Positions 5,688 through 59,701 of a DNA stretch of 64,000 bases are shown here, in pieces (positions within the stretch are counted from its first letter, which is position 1; each line of letters starts with the position of its first letter). The notes beneath the pieces are model-generated. The model was not told the DNA's origin, searched no databases, and worked only from the letters and a program-made list of their open reading frames with translations. The stretch is from Acidobacteriota bacterium (GTDB lineage Bacteria; Acidobacteriota; Terriglobia; Bryobacterales; Bryobacteraceae): positions 1-64,000 of the forward strand of contig CANIVU010000045.1 in the NCBI GenBank assembly GCA_947470805.1, read 5' to 3'. The translations under genes were made by a program, and so were the position numbers.

Positions 5688-6421
5688 GCCTTCACCCTGC
5701 TCAACAACCGCCCTACCCCGTACCGCCACGGAAACGTGGCAACGTCCTTCCGCACCCGCTCCCCATCCGCCGTCGTGAAATACGGCGCTGCCTCCGCCCC
5801 CCACAACTGCCGGTAGTAGTCCAGCAGCAACGGAATCCGCTTGTCCTCCGCGCGCTGATAGTGCAGAAACAGCACTACCCGTTCCCGCGATGTCTCCCGG
5901 TCCCCGCGGTGCCACACGCTCGCATCAAACACATAAAACCGCCCATCGCCAAACCCCGCAAACTGTTCCGGCACCCCCGCCGCCAGCACCGCCGCCTCGT
6001 CCGTCGGTGGCCAATCCCGCCGCCCCTGCGTGCCCGCAATGCACCACGTTGCGGCCTCCGCCGTGCACCCCTCCAACCCCACCGCCACCGTCACCGTCGG
6101 CCACAAAAAGCTCTCCAGGTCGACATGCCACGCGTGCGCCTCGTTCGGCGTCGCCCGCCGGATGTTCGGCCCCCACATCACCCATTTCCGCGTTCCCAAT
6201 ATCGCCTCAACCGTCGCCACGATCGCCGCGTCCTGCGCCACCCGGCGAATGGCCTCCGTCAACAGATACGGCACGCCCCGCCGCCTCTCCGCCTCCATCC
6301 GCGCCAGTTCCCGCGCAAAAGCCGGCTCGTCCGCCAGCAGTTCCTGCACCACCGAAGGGTCCGCCAACGCCCGCGAAACCGCCAGAAATCCGCGCTTCCG
6401 GTACTCCTCGCCCACTGTCAT
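5684..6421 (-). CDS. Phytanoyl-CoA dioxygenase (PhyH)-family protein
   Basis: 245-residue non-haem Fe(II)/2-oxoglutarate oxygenase. The iron-binding HxD is seen in AWHVDLESF at about residue 120, and the distal His with a following Arg in SVWHRGDRETSRERV. Members hydroxylate lipids, natural products or sugars. The long open frame upstream overlaps the divergent SDR gene and is not family-like, so ATG 6421 is taken as the start. Coupling to a glycosyltransferase suggests a tailoring step on a glycan or small molecule, which is inference. Confidence 0.8.
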   Translation of the reverse strand: MTVGEEYRKRGFLAVSRALADPSVVQELLADEPAFARELARMEAERRRGVPYLLTEAIRRVAQDAAIVATVEAILGTRKWVMWGPNIRRATPNEAHAWHVDLESFLWPTVTVAVGLEGCTAEAATWCIAGTQGRRDWPPTDEAAVLAAGVPEQFAGFGDGRFYVFDASVWHRGDRETSRERVVLFLHYQRAEDKRIPLLLDYYRQLWGAEAAPYFTTADGERVRKDVATFPWRYGVGRLLSRVKA

Positions 6422-6469
6422 TTGCCCGAGAATAGCACCCTTCCCCCGGCCGCTGCGTAGACTATCAAT

Positions 6470-7207
6470 ATGAGCGGCCAACCCGTCATCGTCATCACCG
6501 GCGGCTCCCGCGGCATCGGTGCCGCCACCGCCCGCCTCGCCGCCGCCCGCGGCTATAAAGTCGCCATCAACTATGCCCACGACCGCCAAATCGCCGAACA
6601 ACTCGCCACCGAAATCCACGCCGTCGCCATCCAGGCCGACCTCGCCACCGAAGCCGGCGTCCTCTCCCTCTTCGAACAAGTCGACGCCAAACTCGGCCGC
6701 CTCTCCGCCCTGGTCAACAACGCCGCCACACTCGAAACCCAAACACGCCTCGACTCCCTCGACGCCGCCCGCATTCAACGCCTCTTCGCCCTCAACGTCC
6801 AAGCCCCGCTGCTCTGTGCGAAAGAAGCCGTCCGCCGCATGTCCACCCGCTACAACGGCCCCGGCGGCGCCATCGTCAACGTCTCCTCCGGCGCCTCCAA
6901 AACCGGCTCCCCCGGCGAATACATCGACTACGCCGCCACCAAAGGCGCCATCGATACGTTCACCATCGGTCTCGCCAAAGAGGTCGCCGAAGAAGGCATC
7001 CGCGTCAACGCCGTCCGCCCCGGCTTCATCTACACCACCATGCACGCCAAAGGCGGCGAGCCCAATCGTGTCGATCGCCTGAAATCCCAAGTCCCGCTCC
7101 AGCGCGGCGGCCAGCCCGAAGAAGTCGCCACCGCCATCCTCTGGCTGCTCTCCGAAGAAGCTTCCTACATCACCGGCGCTATCCTCGACGTCGCCGGCGG
7201 ACGCTGA
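6470..7207 (+). CDS. Short-chain dehydrogenase/reductase
   Basis: 245-residue classical SDR. It has the TGGSRGIGAAT cofactor motif near residue 10, the NNAA motif, catalytic Ser in NVSSGAS, and YAATKGA with the catalytic Tyr and Lys. The C-terminal SEEASYITGAILDVAGGR is typical of FabG-like oxidoreductases. It is divergent from the PhyH gene with only 48 bases between the starts. The substrate is unknown. Confidence 0.9.
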   Translation: MSGQPVIVITGGSRGIGAATARLAAARGYKVAINYAHDRQIAEQLATEIHAVAIQADLATEAGVLSLFEQVDAKLGRLSALVNNAATLETQTRLDSLDAARIQRLFALNVQAPLLCAKEAVRRMSTRYNGPGGAIVNVSSGASKTGSPGEYIDYAATKGAIDTFTIGLAKEVAEEGIRVNAVRPGFIYTTMHAKGGEPNRVDRLKSQVPLQRGGQPEEVATAILWLLSEEASYITGAILDVAGGR

Positions 7208-7288
7208 CCCCGAATCGCCGCAAAATCGCGTTGCGGGCTCGAATACTTGGCGGGAGATCAGCCCTGCGGGTGTACGATGGGGGCAGCC

Positions 7289-10200
7289 ATGCAGGCGCGC
7301 ACATCTGCAGTTGAGCTCTCGGTCGCAGGGCTCGCGTCATCCCTTGACGCACTCCCGCTCCCGGCCCTGATCGCCGGTAGCAGCGGAATCGTTCATTTCG
7401 CCAATCCACTCATGGCCGGGCTCACCGCTCGCTCCGCCGATGAACTGGTAGGCGAATCCCTGCATACCGTGCTCCCGGTCCGCCCCGCTCAGGATATCCT
7501 GCGCCACCTGCTGGCCGTCGCTGCCTCTGGCCAGTCCTGGAAGGGGATCGTCCAAACGCATCTGTCATCCCGCCTCCCGGTTCCCTGGGAGGTCACCGTC
7601 TCTCCCGTTGTCGATCCGGCCGCCAACGATCGTCTCTTCCTCGTGATCGCCCGCGAACTGTCCGGCCCCCATCCCGAAAACATTCCCTACTTCGCCACCC
7701 GGATCGATGATGCGGTCTTCTCCCTCATCCAGTACTCCTACGATCACTCTGTCAAGGAACTCCTCCAACAGGCTGTCGATCAAGTCTGCGCTCTCACCGG
7801 TAGCCAAATCGGTTTCTACCACTTCGTCCTCGAAGATCAGGAAACGCTCTCCCTCCAGGCATGGTCCACCGCGACGCGTGCGCAGTACTGCAAAGCCGAT
7901 GGCGAGGGCCTTCACTACAATCTCTCCGCGGCTGGAGTCTGGGCCGATGCCGTTCGAAAGCGCCGCGCCGTCATCCACAACGACTACTCGTCCCTTCCCA
8001 ATCGGAAGGGCTTGCCGGAGGGGCATGCCGATCTGATACGCGAACTGGTTGCACCGGTTCTCAGCGGCAATCGCGTCGTCGCCATTCTTGGCATTGGAAA
8101 CAAACAGTCTGACTACGGCGAACCGGATCTGGAAATCGCTACCCGCATCGCGGAGCTCGTCTGGGCCCTCGCCGAGCGCAAGTTTACCGAAGAAAAACTC
8201 CAAGTCCGCCAGGAGCAGTACCGCAATCTCTTCGACATGGGTTCCGATCCTCTGTTCCTCATCGATATGGAGTCGGCTCAGATACTCGAGGCCAATCAAA
8301 CTGCCGCTGAACTCTACGGGTATCGCCACGATCACCTGCTCGGCTGCAAATGTGAGTGTGTCTCTGCCCAGCCGGAAAAGAACTACGCTCTTATCGCCGA
8401 AGCACGCCAGCGTCCCAATCAGGTCATCCACGTCCCGCTAAGCTATCACTTGAAAAAGGACGGAACTGTCTTTCCTGTCGAACTCTCCGCGCGTAGTTTT
8501 GAACGTAATGGACGCAATGTCCTGTTCGTCTCCGTCCGCGATATTACGGCTCGCCTGCGCTCCGAGATGGCCCTGCTGGAACGGGAGGAACACCACCGGA
8601 CGATCCTTCATGCCGCCCTCGATGGCTTCTGGCTTCTTGATAAAGCCGGCCGCATCATCGAGGTCAACGAAGCCTACTGCCGCATGAGCGGATACTCCGC
8701 CGCCGAACTACTCAACATGGGCGTGGCCGACTTGGAGGCCCTGGAATCCCCCATCGACGTCGCCGCGCATATTGCCAGTATCCGCGCACTCGGACAGGGC
8801 CGCTTTCCATCCATCCATCGCCGGAAAGATGGATCGGTCTTCGATCTCGATGTCAGCGTGCAGTATCGGGCGCTGGAGGGCGGACGCTTCGTCTGCTTCC
8901 TCCGCGATGTTACTGAGAAAAGGCGCGCTGAAGCGGCTCTCCAGCAGAGCCATGACCTGCTGTCCAATCTCGCCCGCCTTGTTCCTGGTGTCGTTTATCA
9001 GTATCGTCTTTACCCCGATGGCCGCTCGGCCTTCCCGTACGCCAGCCCAGGCATGTGCGACATCTACGAAGTGACTCCGGAAGAGGTCCAGTTCGATGCC
9101 ACCCCTGTCTTCGGACGGATTCATCCGGACGACCTGGAAGCCGTCTCCCATGCCATCTTTCAATCCGCCCACACGCTGGAGACGTTTTATTCTGAATTCC
9201 GCGTCATCCTCCCCCGCCAGGGGCTGCGCTGGCGCTGGTCCCAGGCCCACCCGGAACGCACCCCGGATGGCGGTACCCTCTGGCACGGCTTCATTTCCGA
9301 TATCACCGAACGCAAACTCGCCGAAGCCGACCGCGAAAAGTTAACCGCCCAGCTCGTCCAGGCCCAGAAAATGGAATCCGTCGGCCGGCTCGCCGGTGGC
9401 GTCGCCCATGACTTCAACAACCTCCTGACTGTCATCAATGGCTATAGCGGCTTTCTTGTCTCCCGGCTCGCTGCCACCGATCCCCTTCGTCCCTACGCCG
9501 AATCCATCGGCAAAGCGGGCGAACGTGCCGCTGCCCTCACCCGGCAACTCCTCGCCTTCAGCCGCAAACAGGTCATTCAGCCCAGAGAGCTTGATCTCAA
9601 CGCCGCCGTTGCCGAAGCCGCTCCCCTCCTGCGCCGCTTGATCGGAGAAGATATCGAACTCGTCACTCGGCTCGATTCCAGTCTCGGCTCTACCGTCGCC
9701 GACCCGGATCAGATCTCCCAGGTCATCATGAACCTCGCCGTCAACGCCCGCGATGCCATGGCGGAAGGCGGCAAGGTGACAATCGCCACGGACAATATCG
9801 ACCTCTCTGACCAGGACGCCCGCGGCCATACCGATGCCTCCCCAGGTGCCTTCGTCGCGCTGACCGTCACCGATTCCGGCCACGGAATGGATGAGGCAAC
9901 CCGCCTCCGCATCTTTGAGCCCTTCTTCACAACTAAAGAATTAGGGAAGGGCACCGGCCTTGGTCTCTCCACCGTCTACGGCATCATTCGCCAAAGTAAT
10001 GGCTGGATCGATGTGTGGAGTAAGCCCGGCGTCGGAACCGCCATCCGCGTCTTCCTGCCCCGTACCGATCAAGCGCCGGCCCCCGCGCCGATTGTGGCAG
10101 GCACCGTCAGCCGGCGCGGAACAGAGACCGTACTCCTCGTCGAAGATCAGGACGCCGTTCGCGCCTATGCCAGGGCCGTCTTGGCCGACAGTGGCTACCA

Positions 10201-55616: not shown

Positions 55617-55810
55617 AAGCACACGCGGAAACAGCGCGGTAGGCCGAGGGGAGAACGGCAAGCGCACGTTCCTATTGGCACAGGAGGGAGAGATCACTGG
55701 AGCGGACCCAGCAATACGGAAGGTTGGCCGTTTTTGGCAGGCAGATTTTGGCAGTCAATTTGTGGGCAGGCAACTTGCTTCGCTGCCCGTTTTCACTTAG
55801 CCATGAGGCC

Positions 55811-56077
55811 ATGGAAGTACATTTCGCACCCGATGTGGAATCACGGCTGCGGCAGGTGGCACAGGCAAATGGCAAGGATGCGGAGCAACTGGTCAAAGAC
55901 ACGGTCGCGCGCATGCTGGAACGCCATGCCCACTTTATCGCCGGAGTGAACAAAGGCATTGCGCAAGCCGATCGGGGCGAGTTGCTCGACCACGATGATG
56001 TGGTGAGCCGCATCACACGGCTCCAGGAGCCGTGTGACTCATCCGGTGGACAGCCGAAGCCGCCAGCGAATACATAA
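55811..56077 (+). CDS. ParD-like antitoxin of a type II pair
   Basis: 88 residues. A short N-terminal strand (MEVHFAPDVESRLRQVAQ), a helical part (AEQLVKDTVARMLERHAHF) and the GIAQADRGELLDHDDVVSRI segment are typical of ParD/RelB-type antitoxins next to ParE. The reading runs 46 bases into the toxin gene with an odd tail (CDSSGGQPKPPANT). The partner toxin appears dead. ATG 55811 is preceded by GAGGCC, a weak ribosome site. Confidence 0.7.
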   Translation: MEVHFAPDVESRLRQVAQANGKDAEQLVKDTVARMLERHAHFIAGVNKGIAQADRGELLDHDDVVSRITRLQEPCDSSGGQPKPPANT

Positions 56078-56286
56078 CGCAGGACAATCCGGCCGCGGGC
56101 CGGACTGTGGCGCAAACGATCATCGGCCGCATCGCCGGGTTGGCGAACGTTCCTGGAGTGGGCCGACCGGGCGAAGTCAATGGCACACGTGAGCTCGTGA
56201 TTCCACCCTACGTAATTATGTATCGTTACACCGGCGAGATCGTGGAGGTCGTCTATATCTGACACGGCGCGCAGGATTGGCGCTGA
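56032..56286 (+). pseudogene. ParE/RelE-like toxin with two in-frame TGA codons
   Basis: From GTG 56032 (behind CCAGGAG) the frame reads M-stop-LIRWTAEAASEYITQ ... RELVIPPYVIMYRYTGEI-VEVVYI-stop-HGAQDWR. It is a complete ParE-like protein of 84 codons apart from TGA at codon 2 (56035-56037) and TGA at 56260-56262. The second is where family members often have Trp before HG. Both could arise from one-base changes. The toxin is probably silenced, with the antitoxin left behind. Confidence 0.7.
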
Positions 56287-56844: not shown

Positions 56845-58692
56845 ATGTTGACCGGAGCCATTTGGGCTATACTTCGAATTCCCACGGGGGGGGGGGGACC
56901 TACAGTGCGGAGAGCCTGTATTGCCATAGGTGTAGACGAGGTCCTTGACGCAGCCAACTTGCCGCGTCTCTCAGCGGCAGCCAGTGGCGCGAGGACGTTC
57001 GCAAAATGGGCCAGTTCTCCGGAGCAGCAATTCGAATCCTTCTGTTTCACAGATGAAACCGGGCCCCTGAGTATCTCCGTGATCAAGGAAAAGATTCGCT
57101 CCATCACAAAAAGCGGCTCCTACAGCCAATTGGTTGTTTATTTTGCGGGTCATGGGATCCTCAAGAGTTGGGACACTGAGGTTTGGCTGCTGAGCGATGC
57201 CGCTACCGACCCCAACGAGGCGGTCAATCTCACGGGATCGGTCAGCTTGGCAAGACAGTCGGGAATTCCCCATGTGATTTTCATTTCCGACGCGTGCCGC
57301 TCACTGGCGTCGGATGTGCGGTTGGCCCAGATTACCGGGAGTCCAGTGTTTCCGATTCATCCCGTCACCTCGCAACGGCCTGAAATTGATACGTTCTATG
57401 CCACCCTGCCGGGCGATCCGTCCTATGAGGTTCCAGCGCCGCAATCGGCGGCAGACTACCGCGGGATCTTTACGGAGTGCCTCTTGTACGGCCTTGAGGG
57501 CCCCGACCAGAGCGTCTGCGAAATGGTGGGCGAACAAGACCAACAGCGTTGGGTTGTCTCATCGCGCTCACTCAAACCGTGGCTGGAACGTGAGGTGCCA
57601 CAGCAGTTGCAAGGGGTCTCGATCGCGCTCAATCAGGTTCCTGAGCTTCGCGTGGAATCGCAACATCCCAAGTATCTCGCGATGTTGCCGGCCCCACCCC
57701 CTCGCCCTCCCCTCAGCTTCGGCAACCCATCTCCGCGTTCAGCCTCGTCAACTGAAAAAGCTCTGCGTGGTCTCGCCGGCCAACACGGACTCGCCGAGTT
57801 CTTTGCGCCCCAGGTGGAGATTCTCTCCGTGCCCCCGCCCGTTGCGGAGGAACGGGAAACCGCCTTCCGGGAAACCGCCTTCAATGATGACGTGCGCTTG
57901 CTGGCTTCTCTCCAGGGCCGTCAGTCGTTTGAAACGCAGACCGGCTTTACTGTGGTTGGTGCTCGAATCTCGATGGCGTTTCTCGAAGGCGTGCCCGATG
58001 GCTGTGACGTCTTTGAGGAGAACGGCGCCATGCACGTCCGGGTGCGCATCGCCGAGTCTCAGGGCTCCGTCATCATCGGATTTACCGATGGCCGGGGAAC
58101 CTGTCTGGCCGCCTTGCCGGGATACATCGGCACGGTGATGGTGGTCGATGGATCTGTCGTCAATGTCAGCTACACCCCGGCGCGAAACAGCCCTCGCTGG
58201 CACGACTATGAGCATCAGCGGGACGAAGTCGAAAAACGCCGTTCGTTTGTGGCCGTAGCCGCGCGAAGCGGGATTCTGAGGCTCACCAGAGATCGCGCCG
58301 CGTCGTTTGGTGATTATGTGCGGCAATTGAAAGTTCTCGACCCCACACTTGGTATCTACGCTGCCTATGCCTATAGCCAGGCTGGAATGATCGACGAAGT
58401 GGAGAGTGTTTTTGAATGGATGGCGCTCGATCATCAGGTGCCGGTGCCATTTGATATCGCGCTGCTGGCGAATCGCTTGACCGACCCACGTGGAGCCCGG
58501 ATTGCCGGAAGCACTCCCATGATGACGCAGGGGTGGGCGTTGCTCCACGAGGGTCTGTCGCTTGACCCACGCATACTGCAAACCAGCAACTACACGTTGC
58601 CCTCCCTGTGGACGACCCTCTCGGCGGAAGGCGTCGCGTTCCTGTGGCCCACATTGAGTCCGCTCGCGCAAAGGGAGATATCCGCACAATGA
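56845..58692 (+). CDS. Caspase-family (peptidase C14) protease
   Basis: 615 residues from ATG 56845 (GGAGG eight bases before), or 595 from GTG 56905. The caspase fold occupies about 22-270, with the catalytic His in VVYFAGHGIL and Cys in VIFISDACRS. A Pro-rich linker (about 275-310) leads to an unrecognised C-terminal region with a beta part (about 340-440) and a helical part (about 460-600) that may sense a trigger. Bacterial caspases act in programmed death and phage defence. A 12-G tract lies between the two possible starts. The hydrolase gene overlaps the stop by four bases. Confidence 0.82.
   Translation: MLTGAIWAILRIPTGGGGPTVRRACIAIGVDEVLDAANLPRLSAAASGARTFAKWASSPEQQFESFCFTDETGPLSISVIKEKIRSITKSGSYSQLVVYFAGHGILKSWDTEVWLLSDAATDPNEAVNLTGSVSLARQSGIPHVIFISDACRSLASDVRLAQITGSPVFPIHPVTSQRPEIDTFYATLPGDPSYEVPAPQSAADYRGIFTECLLYGLEGPDQSVCEMVGEQDQQRWVVSSRSLKPWLEREVPQQLQGVSIALNQVPELRVESQHPKYLAMLPAPPPRPPLSFGNPSPRSASSTEKALRGLAGQHGLAEFFAPQVEILSVPPPVAEERETAFRETAFNDDVRLLASLQGRQSFETQTGFTVVGARISMAFLEGVPDGCDVFEENGAMHVRVRIAESQGSVIIGFTDGRGTCLAALPGYIGTVMVVDGSVVNVSYTPARNSPRWHDYEHQRDEVEKRRSFVAVAARSGILRLTRDRAASFGDYVRQLKVLDPTLGIYAAYAYSQAGMIDEVESVFEWMALDHQVPVPFDIALLANRLTDPRGARIAGSTPMMTQGWALLHEGLSLDPRILQTSNYTLPSLWTTLSAEGVAFLWPTLSPLAQREISAQ
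56886..56897 (+). repeat. Homopolymer of 12 G near the 5' end of the caspase-like gene
   Basis: Twelve consecutive G residues encode the Gly run after residue 14 when translation starts at ATG 56845. With 11 or 13 G the frame from that ATG would reach a stop within about 25 codons. If GTG 56905 is used, the tract is instead the ribosome-binding region. Confidence 0.9.
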
Positions 58693-59564
58693 AAATTGTC
58701 TTTGTTCACGGTCGCAGCCAGGGCGGGGAGAATGCGGAGGAACTCCGCCTCTTCTGGGAAGGCTGCCTGGATCGCGCCTTCTACAAGGCAGGCCTCGCCT
58801 GGCCGAAGGGGGCTGAGGTTGTTCTACCCTTCTATGCGGACGATCTCGACCGCATGGTGGCACAGGTAGAGTCCCCCCTGGTTACCAACGTGTTGCTGCG
58901 CGGCTCTTCCCAGGTGTCCGACAAGGAGTTGGCTCGCGTGGAGATCCTCCGGGAAATGATGGAAGCGCAGGGCGATGCCGCCAAAAAGATTGAAGCCCAA
59001 TTCACGGGGCAACCGCGCGAGCGGGGTCCGCAGAACTGGCCCTGGGTGTTGGCGCTCCTCCGGGCTCTGGACGCCACGCCCTTGGGCGGCGATGCAATCG
59101 ATGCCATCACCCGCGACGTCTGGGTTTATCTTACATATGGCGGCGTGCGTGACCGCGTCGACGCGATTGTCCGTGCGGCGATTCCCGCCGAACCGTTTGT
59201 CTTGGTGGCCCACTCGCTGGGAACCATCGTCTCTTACAACATTCTTTCCCGCAGAACCGCTGGTTCTCCGGCGATTCCGCTACTGGTAACGCTTGGCTCT
59301 CCCCTCGGAATCCGCGCCATCTCCTCGCGGCTGCACCGGCCGCTGGTTATGCCCACAGCGGTGGACGCGTGGTTCAATGCCCGAGACCCGCGTGACACGG
59401 TGGCACTCTATGCACTCGACTCCGACCACTTCGACATTACCCCCGTCATCGAAAACCATTCAGACGTCGATAACTTCACCGACAATCGGCATTCGATCGA
59501 TGGATACTTGGCGGACCCGGTCGTCGCTCGGCGCATCCACGGGGCTTTGTCTTCGATCAAGTGA
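58689..59564 (+). CDS. Alpha/beta hydrolase (lipase/esterase-like)
   Basis: 291 residues, no signal peptide. It starts MKIVFVHGRSQGGENAEE, with the oxyanion HG motif, and has the nucleophile elbow in VLVAHSLGTIVSYN and a later strand LLVTLGSPLG. Likely acidic and His residues lie near RDPRDTVALY and the DHFDITPV part. A helical lid of about 100 residues is inserted after the first strand. This resembles PGAP1-like lipases. ATG 58689 overlaps the caspase stop (ATGA). A membrane-lipid target would fit a death effector released or activated by the protease (inference). Confidence 0.8.
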   Translation: MKIVFVHGRSQGGENAEELRLFWEGCLDRAFYKAGLAWPKGAEVVLPFYADDLDRMVAQVESPLVTNVLLRGSSQVSDKELARVEILREMMEAQGDAAKKIEAQFTGQPRERGPQNWPWVLALLRALDATPLGGDAIDAITRDVWVYLTYGGVRDRVDAIVRAAIPAEPFVLVAHSLGTIVSYNILSRRTAGSPAIPLLVTLGSPLGIRAISSRLHRPLVMPTAVDAWFNARDPRDTVALYALDSDHFDITPVIENHSDVDNFTDNRHSIDGYLADPVVARRIHGALSSIK

Positions 59565-59701
59565 GCGAACACGATTACGAAAACCGGCGCCCAAATCCTA
59601 GCTGGGAGTACCCTTCGCGCGAAGTACCGGGTCACCGGAAGACACGGGCCGAAGAGACACACCGAAAGACAAAACGCGAGAACCGCGTTGGGGAATTCTA
59701 A
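59561..59701 (+). CDS. 46-residue highly charged protein, third gene of the caspase operon
   Basis: GTG 59561 overlaps the hydrolase stop (GTGA) and the frame runs 46 codons to TAA. The protein starts MSEHDYENRRPNPSWEYPSR and its second half is mostly Lys, Arg, Glu and Thr. There is no hydrophobic segment. The four-base overlap equals that between the first two genes. That is the main reason to believe it is real. It could be an inhibitor, a processing substrate of the caspase or a regulator. Confidence 0.5.
   Translation: MSEHDYENRRPNPSWEYPSREVPGHRKTRAEETHRKTKRENRVGEF

Follow-up and report, generated by a model that had tools for sequence, protein, structure and literature searches.

This work concerns two adjacent genes in a 64,000-nucleotide stretch of DNA, here called the window (positions 1 to 64,000 of contig CANIVU010000045.1, assembly GCA_947470805.1), from an Acidobacteriota bacterium of the family Bryobacteraceae. 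One gene encodes a caspase of the Peptidase C14 family, the other an alpha/beta hydrolase that resembles lipases. A first-pass annotation of the window had placed them, together with a small charged protein, in a three-gene operon and had suggested a role in conflict or cell death. Both enzymes hold up under the analysis described here and the small protein does not, which leaves a unit of two genes. The features are as follows, all on the forward strand (fractions refer to sets of 22 and 25 loci, defined below).

56905 to 58692, + strand: caspase (Peptidase C14) gene, 595 amino acids from GTG at 56905
57151 to 57153, + strand: codon of catalytic His83 (numbered from that GTG), invariant (22/22)
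57289 to 57297, + strand: codons of Asp129-Ala-Cys131, the S1-type Asp (22/22) and the catalytic Cys (57295-57297; 21/22)
57670 to 58689, + strand: caspase C-terminal region, from about residue 256, conserved across the family
58689 to 59564, + strand: alpha/beta hydrolase gene, 291 amino acids, its start overlapping the caspase stop
58899 to 58904, + strand: codons of Arg71-Gly72, first predicted cleavage site (R or K 25/25, G 25/25 of the caspase-paired hydrolases)
58902 to 59024, + strand: predicted excisable lid, residues 72-112, variable and mostly of low confidence in the AlphaFold2 (AF2) model
59022 to 59027, + strand: codons of Arg112-Gly113, second predicted cleavage site (R or K 25/25, G 24/25)
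59214 to 59216, + strand: codon of nucleophile Ser176 (25/25)
59394 to 59396, + strand: codon of triad acid Asp236 (25/25), or else Asp233 (59385-59387)
59490 to 59492, + strand: codon of triad His268 (25/25)
59561 to 59701, + strand: open reading frame (ORF) of 46 codons, probably not a gene and not in the system, with no relative at other loci

The window caspase matches Pfam Peptidase C14 at about 24.7-24.8 bits, above the cut-off of 21.4, and all 13 members of the caspase alignment A3 match at E 1 or better. Other profile searches gave weak matches only, the best to Metacaspase-4 (E 0.002), and searches of the PDB with single proteins gave nothing useful. The Asp two residues before the catalytic Cys is present in 22 of 22 caspases, and the D-x-C motif recurs in three pairs found later (L085, L086, L114). 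In the accessible part of one structural source this Asp is compared with Asp462 of MALT1 and Asp211 of TbMCA2, at a place where caspase-7 has Gln184 (PMC4357240). It fits a basic P1 specificity, and D-x-C may be taken as a sign that caspases of this family share it. The C-terminal region of the window protein, described earlier as unrecognised, indeed has no Pfam match.

The hydrolase carries the motifs HGR and HSLG, the Asp and the His. An AF2 model and structure comparison give it an alpha/beta hydrolase fold with a Ser-Asp-His triad. No curated Pfam alpha/beta hydrolase family matches it above cut-off (best 17.6 bits against 26.3), and the viral structure library offers at best generic alpha/beta hydrolases and lipases.

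Two details of the gene models need mention. An ATG at 56845, in frame with the caspase, would add 20 residues without homology. GTG 56905 is the likelier start, because the alignment to the closest relative (L017) begins only at residue 21 of the longer reading. Between the two starts, at 56886-56897, is a run of 12 G that is unique in the window. Lying just 5' of the GTG, it may serve as a ribosome-binding sequence, or it could be a point of slippage in expression or a weak point of sequencing.

The strongest evidence that the two genes belong together is their distribution. A scan of genome contigs with a two-row caspase alignment gave 14 loci, 12 of them full length with a downstream hydrolase. 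The other two, L028 (whose contig ends within or just after the caspase) and L030, were dropped before counting, as was L003. L003 (1504-1779, minus strand) and L030 (5001-5288) hold truncated caspase matches with no hydrolase nearby (55% identity over 92 residues and 52% over 97) and are probably decayed copies. Among plasmids, the hydrolase is matched in 42 records and the caspase in 19. Each of those 19 also carries the hydrolase, downstream on the same strand, and in 8 of them the caspase match covers at least 80% of the query. Two records, NZ_CP121310 and NZ_CP140925, were left out of the counts; in the latter the hydrolase match spans just 58% and the gene may be broken. Of 279 genomes in the family of Paraburkholderia metrosideri, 13 have some match and four a full-length one, one of the four already known. 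The window, the 12 scan loci, six plasmid pairs and three Paraburkholderia-family pairs make up the set of 22. Further searching, in 369 and 249 genomes and in viral contigs, added L085, L086 and L114 to make 25, the class sample of 369 genomes contributing no new pair. In two of these additions the locus at first ended inside the caspase, and the L085 piece matched no Pfam family. Longer stretches of both show a caspase with D-x-C, the C-terminal region (at a low score, 64 bits, in L086) and a downstream hydrolase. For the relatives, reading frame, alignment and annotation guided the choice of start codon, and four divergent loci (L050, L067, L076, L094) were counted apart.

In the window and all 24 of its full-length relatives the hydrolase lies downstream of the caspase on the same strand. 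The pairs come from Acidobacteriota, Pseudomonadota, Actinomycetota, Bacteroidota and one viral contig. The gene order proposed at the outset is thus conserved for the two enzymes, and the third ORF is found in no relative. A four-base overlap at the junction, as in the window (ATGA at 58689-58692), occurs in 10 of 22 pairs and in L114. The closest relative, from a metagenome-assembled genome of Terriglobia in the window's own family, has both genes at 64% and 66% identity. No second full-length relative appears among the 199 other genomes searched in that family; none of the 11 other genomes of the same genus in the sample has the pair (few candidates were scored per genome), and the window's own genome has a single caspase copy.

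The two genes have also travelled together. Trees of caspase and hydrolase over the 22 pairs have 16 of 19 splits in common, and their distances correlate at 0.80, a value reached by none of 10000 permutations. Groups in the trees cross phyla, the window and L017 falling with a Hymenobacter plasmid and two Paraburkholderia-family genomes, and Amycolatopsis with members of Variovorax, Thiobacillus and Lysobacteraceae. Such groups argue for horizontal transfer of the pair, and the sequences indicate that it is inherited and transferred as one unit. Generic caspases that lack the C-terminal region (L004-L009, L072-L080) have a hydrolase homologue at one of 15 loci, L076, on the opposite strand. 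This control is weak, each locus reaching only about 1.5 kb past the match. The genomes of L004-L009 are not among the seven in which a hydrolase match was seen, which strengthens it for those loci.

A further correspondence lies at the N-termini. At eight of the 22 loci (L018, L019, L020, L021, L027, L049, L056, L059) a twin-arginine hydrophobic leader is present at the start of both proteins, and at the other 14, the window included, neither protein has one. To the eye, RR is present in each of the 16 proteins concerned. TIGR01409 scored 14.8, 14.1 and 12.9 bits in three of ten proteins scanned (from five of these loci), all under its cut-off of 16.7. Export of these proteins by the twin-arginine translocation (Tat) pathway is likely. 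The eight loci form one side of a single branch in both trees (support 95/93 and 86/94), so they probably represent one event in both genes and not eight independent cases.

Within the hydrolases, a basic residue followed by Gly occupies columns 71-72 and 112-113 in every one of the 22 pairs. This rule was written down as a prediction before the three fresh pairs were seen. All three have R at both sites and G72; two have G113 and the third has Ala there. Over the 25 pairs, columns 9, 71 and 112 are the only ones with R or K in at least 24. On the tree of 22 pairs, R and K have interchanged at least four times at the one site and at least three at the other, and the Gly residues have not changed at all. 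Between the sites, 29 of the 39 columns 73-111 have changed 8-15 times. Among 54 hydrolases with another partner or none known, basic-Gly is found in none at 71-72 and in one at 112-113 (L045), in an alignment that is unsure there, with many rows gapped. In L045, at 6001-8006 on a Sinorhizobium fredii plasmid, the hydrolase is followed by a CHAT-domain protein.

In another nine loci (L046, L060, L087-L093) a homologous hydrolase is fused behind a trypsin-like protease, recognised as Trypsin_2 in the three scanned, and Glu-Gly replaces Arg/Lys-Gly: all nine have E-G at 112, and position 71 has no conserved residue. As a lead only, residue 112 may track the specificity of the partner protease, R or K with caspases and E with the Trypsin_2-type fusions. 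The lead is weakened by partners of the STAND type, which break the rule, and by the relatedness of the nine fusions, L087 and L088 scoring alike throughout. In L100, a further ORF that shows a trypsin-like motif, column 112 is a gap.

I propose that the two genes form a mobile module for conflict or cell death, and that the caspase, specific for basic residues, cuts and activates a latent lipase-like hydrolase, a reading in which my confidence falls a little short of even. The caspase would be translated together with a latent serine hydrolase, and its conserved C-terminal region would serve for sensing or as a scaffold. Upon a trigger, the caspase would cleave its partner after R71 and R112, and a lid of about 41 residues would come off or open. 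The freed hydrolase would then attack membrane lipids, and the infected or damaged cell would be stopped. The pair, its co-inheritance, the catalytic residues of both proteins, the conserved basic-Gly sites and the matching leaders are seen in the sequences; cleavage, lipid substrate, trigger and antiphage role are what I infer from the genes and their relatives. A stronger form of the proposal strikes me as rather doubtful: that the pair is a caspase-activated pro-lipase, an undescribed minimal immune module whose lid is excised at the two basic-Gly sites, and that in one lineage Tat has moved it out to act as a periplasmic death or defence switch.

The 46-residue ORF is probably a chance ORF outside the system. 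In a tblastn search of 119 loci it found the window's own copies and only two other pieces, of 23-24 residues, at loci with neither caspase nor hydrolase. Of 101 whole genomes searched, 85 give a match of some kind at E 1; leaving the window aside, the lowest E values (per genome) are 0.002, over 26 residues, and 0.02. At L017 a different gene, no relative of it, lies downstream of the hydrolase. The second overlap that had been taken to join it to the operon is real (GTGA at 59561-59564). It is little evidence for a third gene, since such overlaps are common here: a TGA overlapping a start ends 15 of the 51 window ORFs of at least 250 amino acids (real or not, and the pair's two junctions included), and 11 of the 15 overlapping frames stay open for at least 40 codons. 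With overlaps so common and no relatives found, a role as antitoxin or regulator was rejected.

Upstream, at 55724-56262, lie a weak ribbon-helix-helix antitoxin-like ORF and a ParE-like piece truncated at its N-terminus. These had been called dead toxin-antitoxin genes, a description that holds in part: the ParE piece (56107-56259) scores 23.7 bits against a cut-off of 23 (profile positions 30-82 of 89), and the ribbon-helix-helix match is below threshold (16.3 of 27.2 bits). PADLOC found no complete listed system in four window proteins, giving a weak caspase match (17.1 bits) and a chance-level match to DpdJ, and PHROGs matched none of the window proteins.

Neighbours of the other loci were scanned in pools (87 of 97 neighbour ORFs, the first 25 families of each). 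As for the supposed defence-island setting, the pair has conflict genes nearby at some loci and ordinary ones at others. L057 has MzaB, MzaC, a type II methyltransferase and an HNH protein; L058 a GASH protein and a patatin; L023 CHAT; L024 a subtilase with TPR; and L059, as annotated, an S8 peptidase and a metallo-beta-lactamase (MBL)-fold protein. The viral pair L114 (2989-9653, an IMG/VR contig) is near a long helicase-type ORF that by eye resembles a restriction subunit. At L022 (7648-8916) and L057 (8900-10615) a third gene directly follows the hydrolase; neither has a Pfam match, both have HExxH-type motifs by eye, and they are possibly accessory metallopeptidases. On Actinomycete plasmids (L061, L063, L064, L065, L066) the hydrolase stands beside a protein with a caspase-like N-terminus, several with NTPase and WD40 parts, and L061 and L063 are near a type I-E CRISPR gene.

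How do these genes compare with known systems? In bacterial gasdermin systems a protease releases a membrane-attacking partner. The same would happen here, except that the partner is an enzyme, and neither Pfam nor PADLOC matches a gasdermin family in the window proteins. The system nearest in mechanism is Canu, whose caspase activates a nuclease (Science 2025, PMC12799240), and lid cleavage is modelled here by analogy with it. In the accessible text its caspase gene lies upstream of a putative pro-enzyme, and cutting is proposed to occur in two flexible insertions that carry conserved Gly; both features have counterparts here. Canu membership was nonetheless rejected: the partner is a serine hydrolase, not an MBL-fold nuclease, and there are two genes, not three, with no CanB. 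The EACC1-caspase system (PMC7159879, as far as its text was available; NCBIfam NF047832) likewise has two genes, one a caspase, with weak domain similarity. It too was rejected, at 22.1 bits against a cut-off of 140 and with a hydrolase as partner in place of the EACC1 membrane domain. Alpha/beta-hydrolases fused to bDLD3 are predicted, in the portion seen of PMC8195603 (2021), to be membrane-lipid effectors in a conflict setting where caspases are also among the effectors. There the hydrolase is fused to an adaptor domain, whereas here it is a separate gene behind one caspase family.

Closest in parts are the vWA-MoxR-VMAP systems. According to the sections available of Kaur et al. 2020 (PMC7159879), VMAP-linked caspases always come with a neighbouring alpha/beta-hydrolase gene, and homologues of the window hydrolase stand next to VMAP-M2 proteins of Streptomyces plasmids (L048, L062). 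By eye, HG...D-x-C can be read at the N-termini of these VMAP-M2 proteins, which have no Pfam caspase match. The pairing as such, which the first-pass annotation did not know, is therefore already in print. Those sections do not mention a stand-alone caspase with its own C-terminal region, a Tat-leader clade or the basic-Gly sites. Nor do these features, or a stand-alone caspase-lipase system, appear among the papers listed by literature searches, whose scope mostly left out subscription papers and preprints and in part covered only the first papers of a list. MoxR, vWA and VMAP have no Pfam match in five window ORFs at 55.7-61.2 kb; beside the pairs at other loci, the pooled families considered were 25 of 81.

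Several observations weigh against cleavage and activation. The hydrolases beside STAND-type (L061, L063-L066) or VMAP (L048, L062) proteins lack the basic-Gly sites, and yet the N-termini of these partners read HG...D-x-C by eye; a Pfam caspase match, below threshold, was seen in L061 alone of four scanned. Of the divergent stand-alone pairs, L067 keeps one site and L050 (4241-6873, on an Agrobacterium Ti plasmid) neither. The AF2 model of the hydrolase is middling (mean predicted local distance difference test score 69), with no demonstrated block of the active site. The L017 caspase has Trp at the catalytic Cys, either an inactive caspase or a sequence error, and its hydrolase retains the triad and both basic-Gly sites. 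At several loci the pair has ordinary neighbours, among them genes for transketolase, alcohol dehydrogenase, cytochrome or ABC transporters, and the five neighbouring window ORFs show, in Pfam, no sensor or known defence system beyond the toxin-antitoxin remnants. The basic-Gly sites may, after all, be structural or belong to an interface. If so, the hydrolase of a conflict module could be constitutively competent, with the caspase cutting other proteins of the cell or keeping the hydrolase silent until it is needed. I think this somewhat unlikely. The family members beside STAND-type and VMAP proteins favour it, and co-inheritance requires interaction, not cleavage. However, R and K that interchange beside a fixed Gly, within a variable lid, resemble a protease site.

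The leaders invite a different account, in which the pair serves the envelope and not phage defence, for instance in stress-triggered turnover of lipid or protein, the Tat-like clade marking the true site and the others having lost export. Twin-arginine motifs on both proteins at eight loci and the ordinary neighbours speak for it. I consider it improbable, given the 14 loci without leaders, the window among them, the patchy presence (4 of 279 and 0 of 11 genomes, as above), the occurrence on plasmids and some defence neighbours. A simple housekeeping lipase is unlikely given the specific link to a caspase. It is scarcely credible that unrelated ordinary genes lie together by accident in this genome. 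The single full-length relative among 199 genomes of the family might have hinted at it, but adjacency in 25 of 25 loci across phyla and congruent trees already refute it. The early suggestion of a conflict system joining a caspase to a lipid hydrolase finds support in adjacency, co-inheritance, plasmids and homology to VMAP- and STAND-linked hydrolases, and survives without its third gene.

The model of a caspase that activates a lipase-like hydrolase matters for what it makes accessible. In 2020 the pairing was noted inside large NTPase systems, and the available text gives no mechanism (PMC7159879). Here the pair stands alone as two small genes and has two specific candidate cut sites, which opens the pairing to a direct test. 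If the model is true, lipases would join nucleases and gasdermins among the effectors switched on by a protease, and to find such a module exported by Tat would be a surprise.
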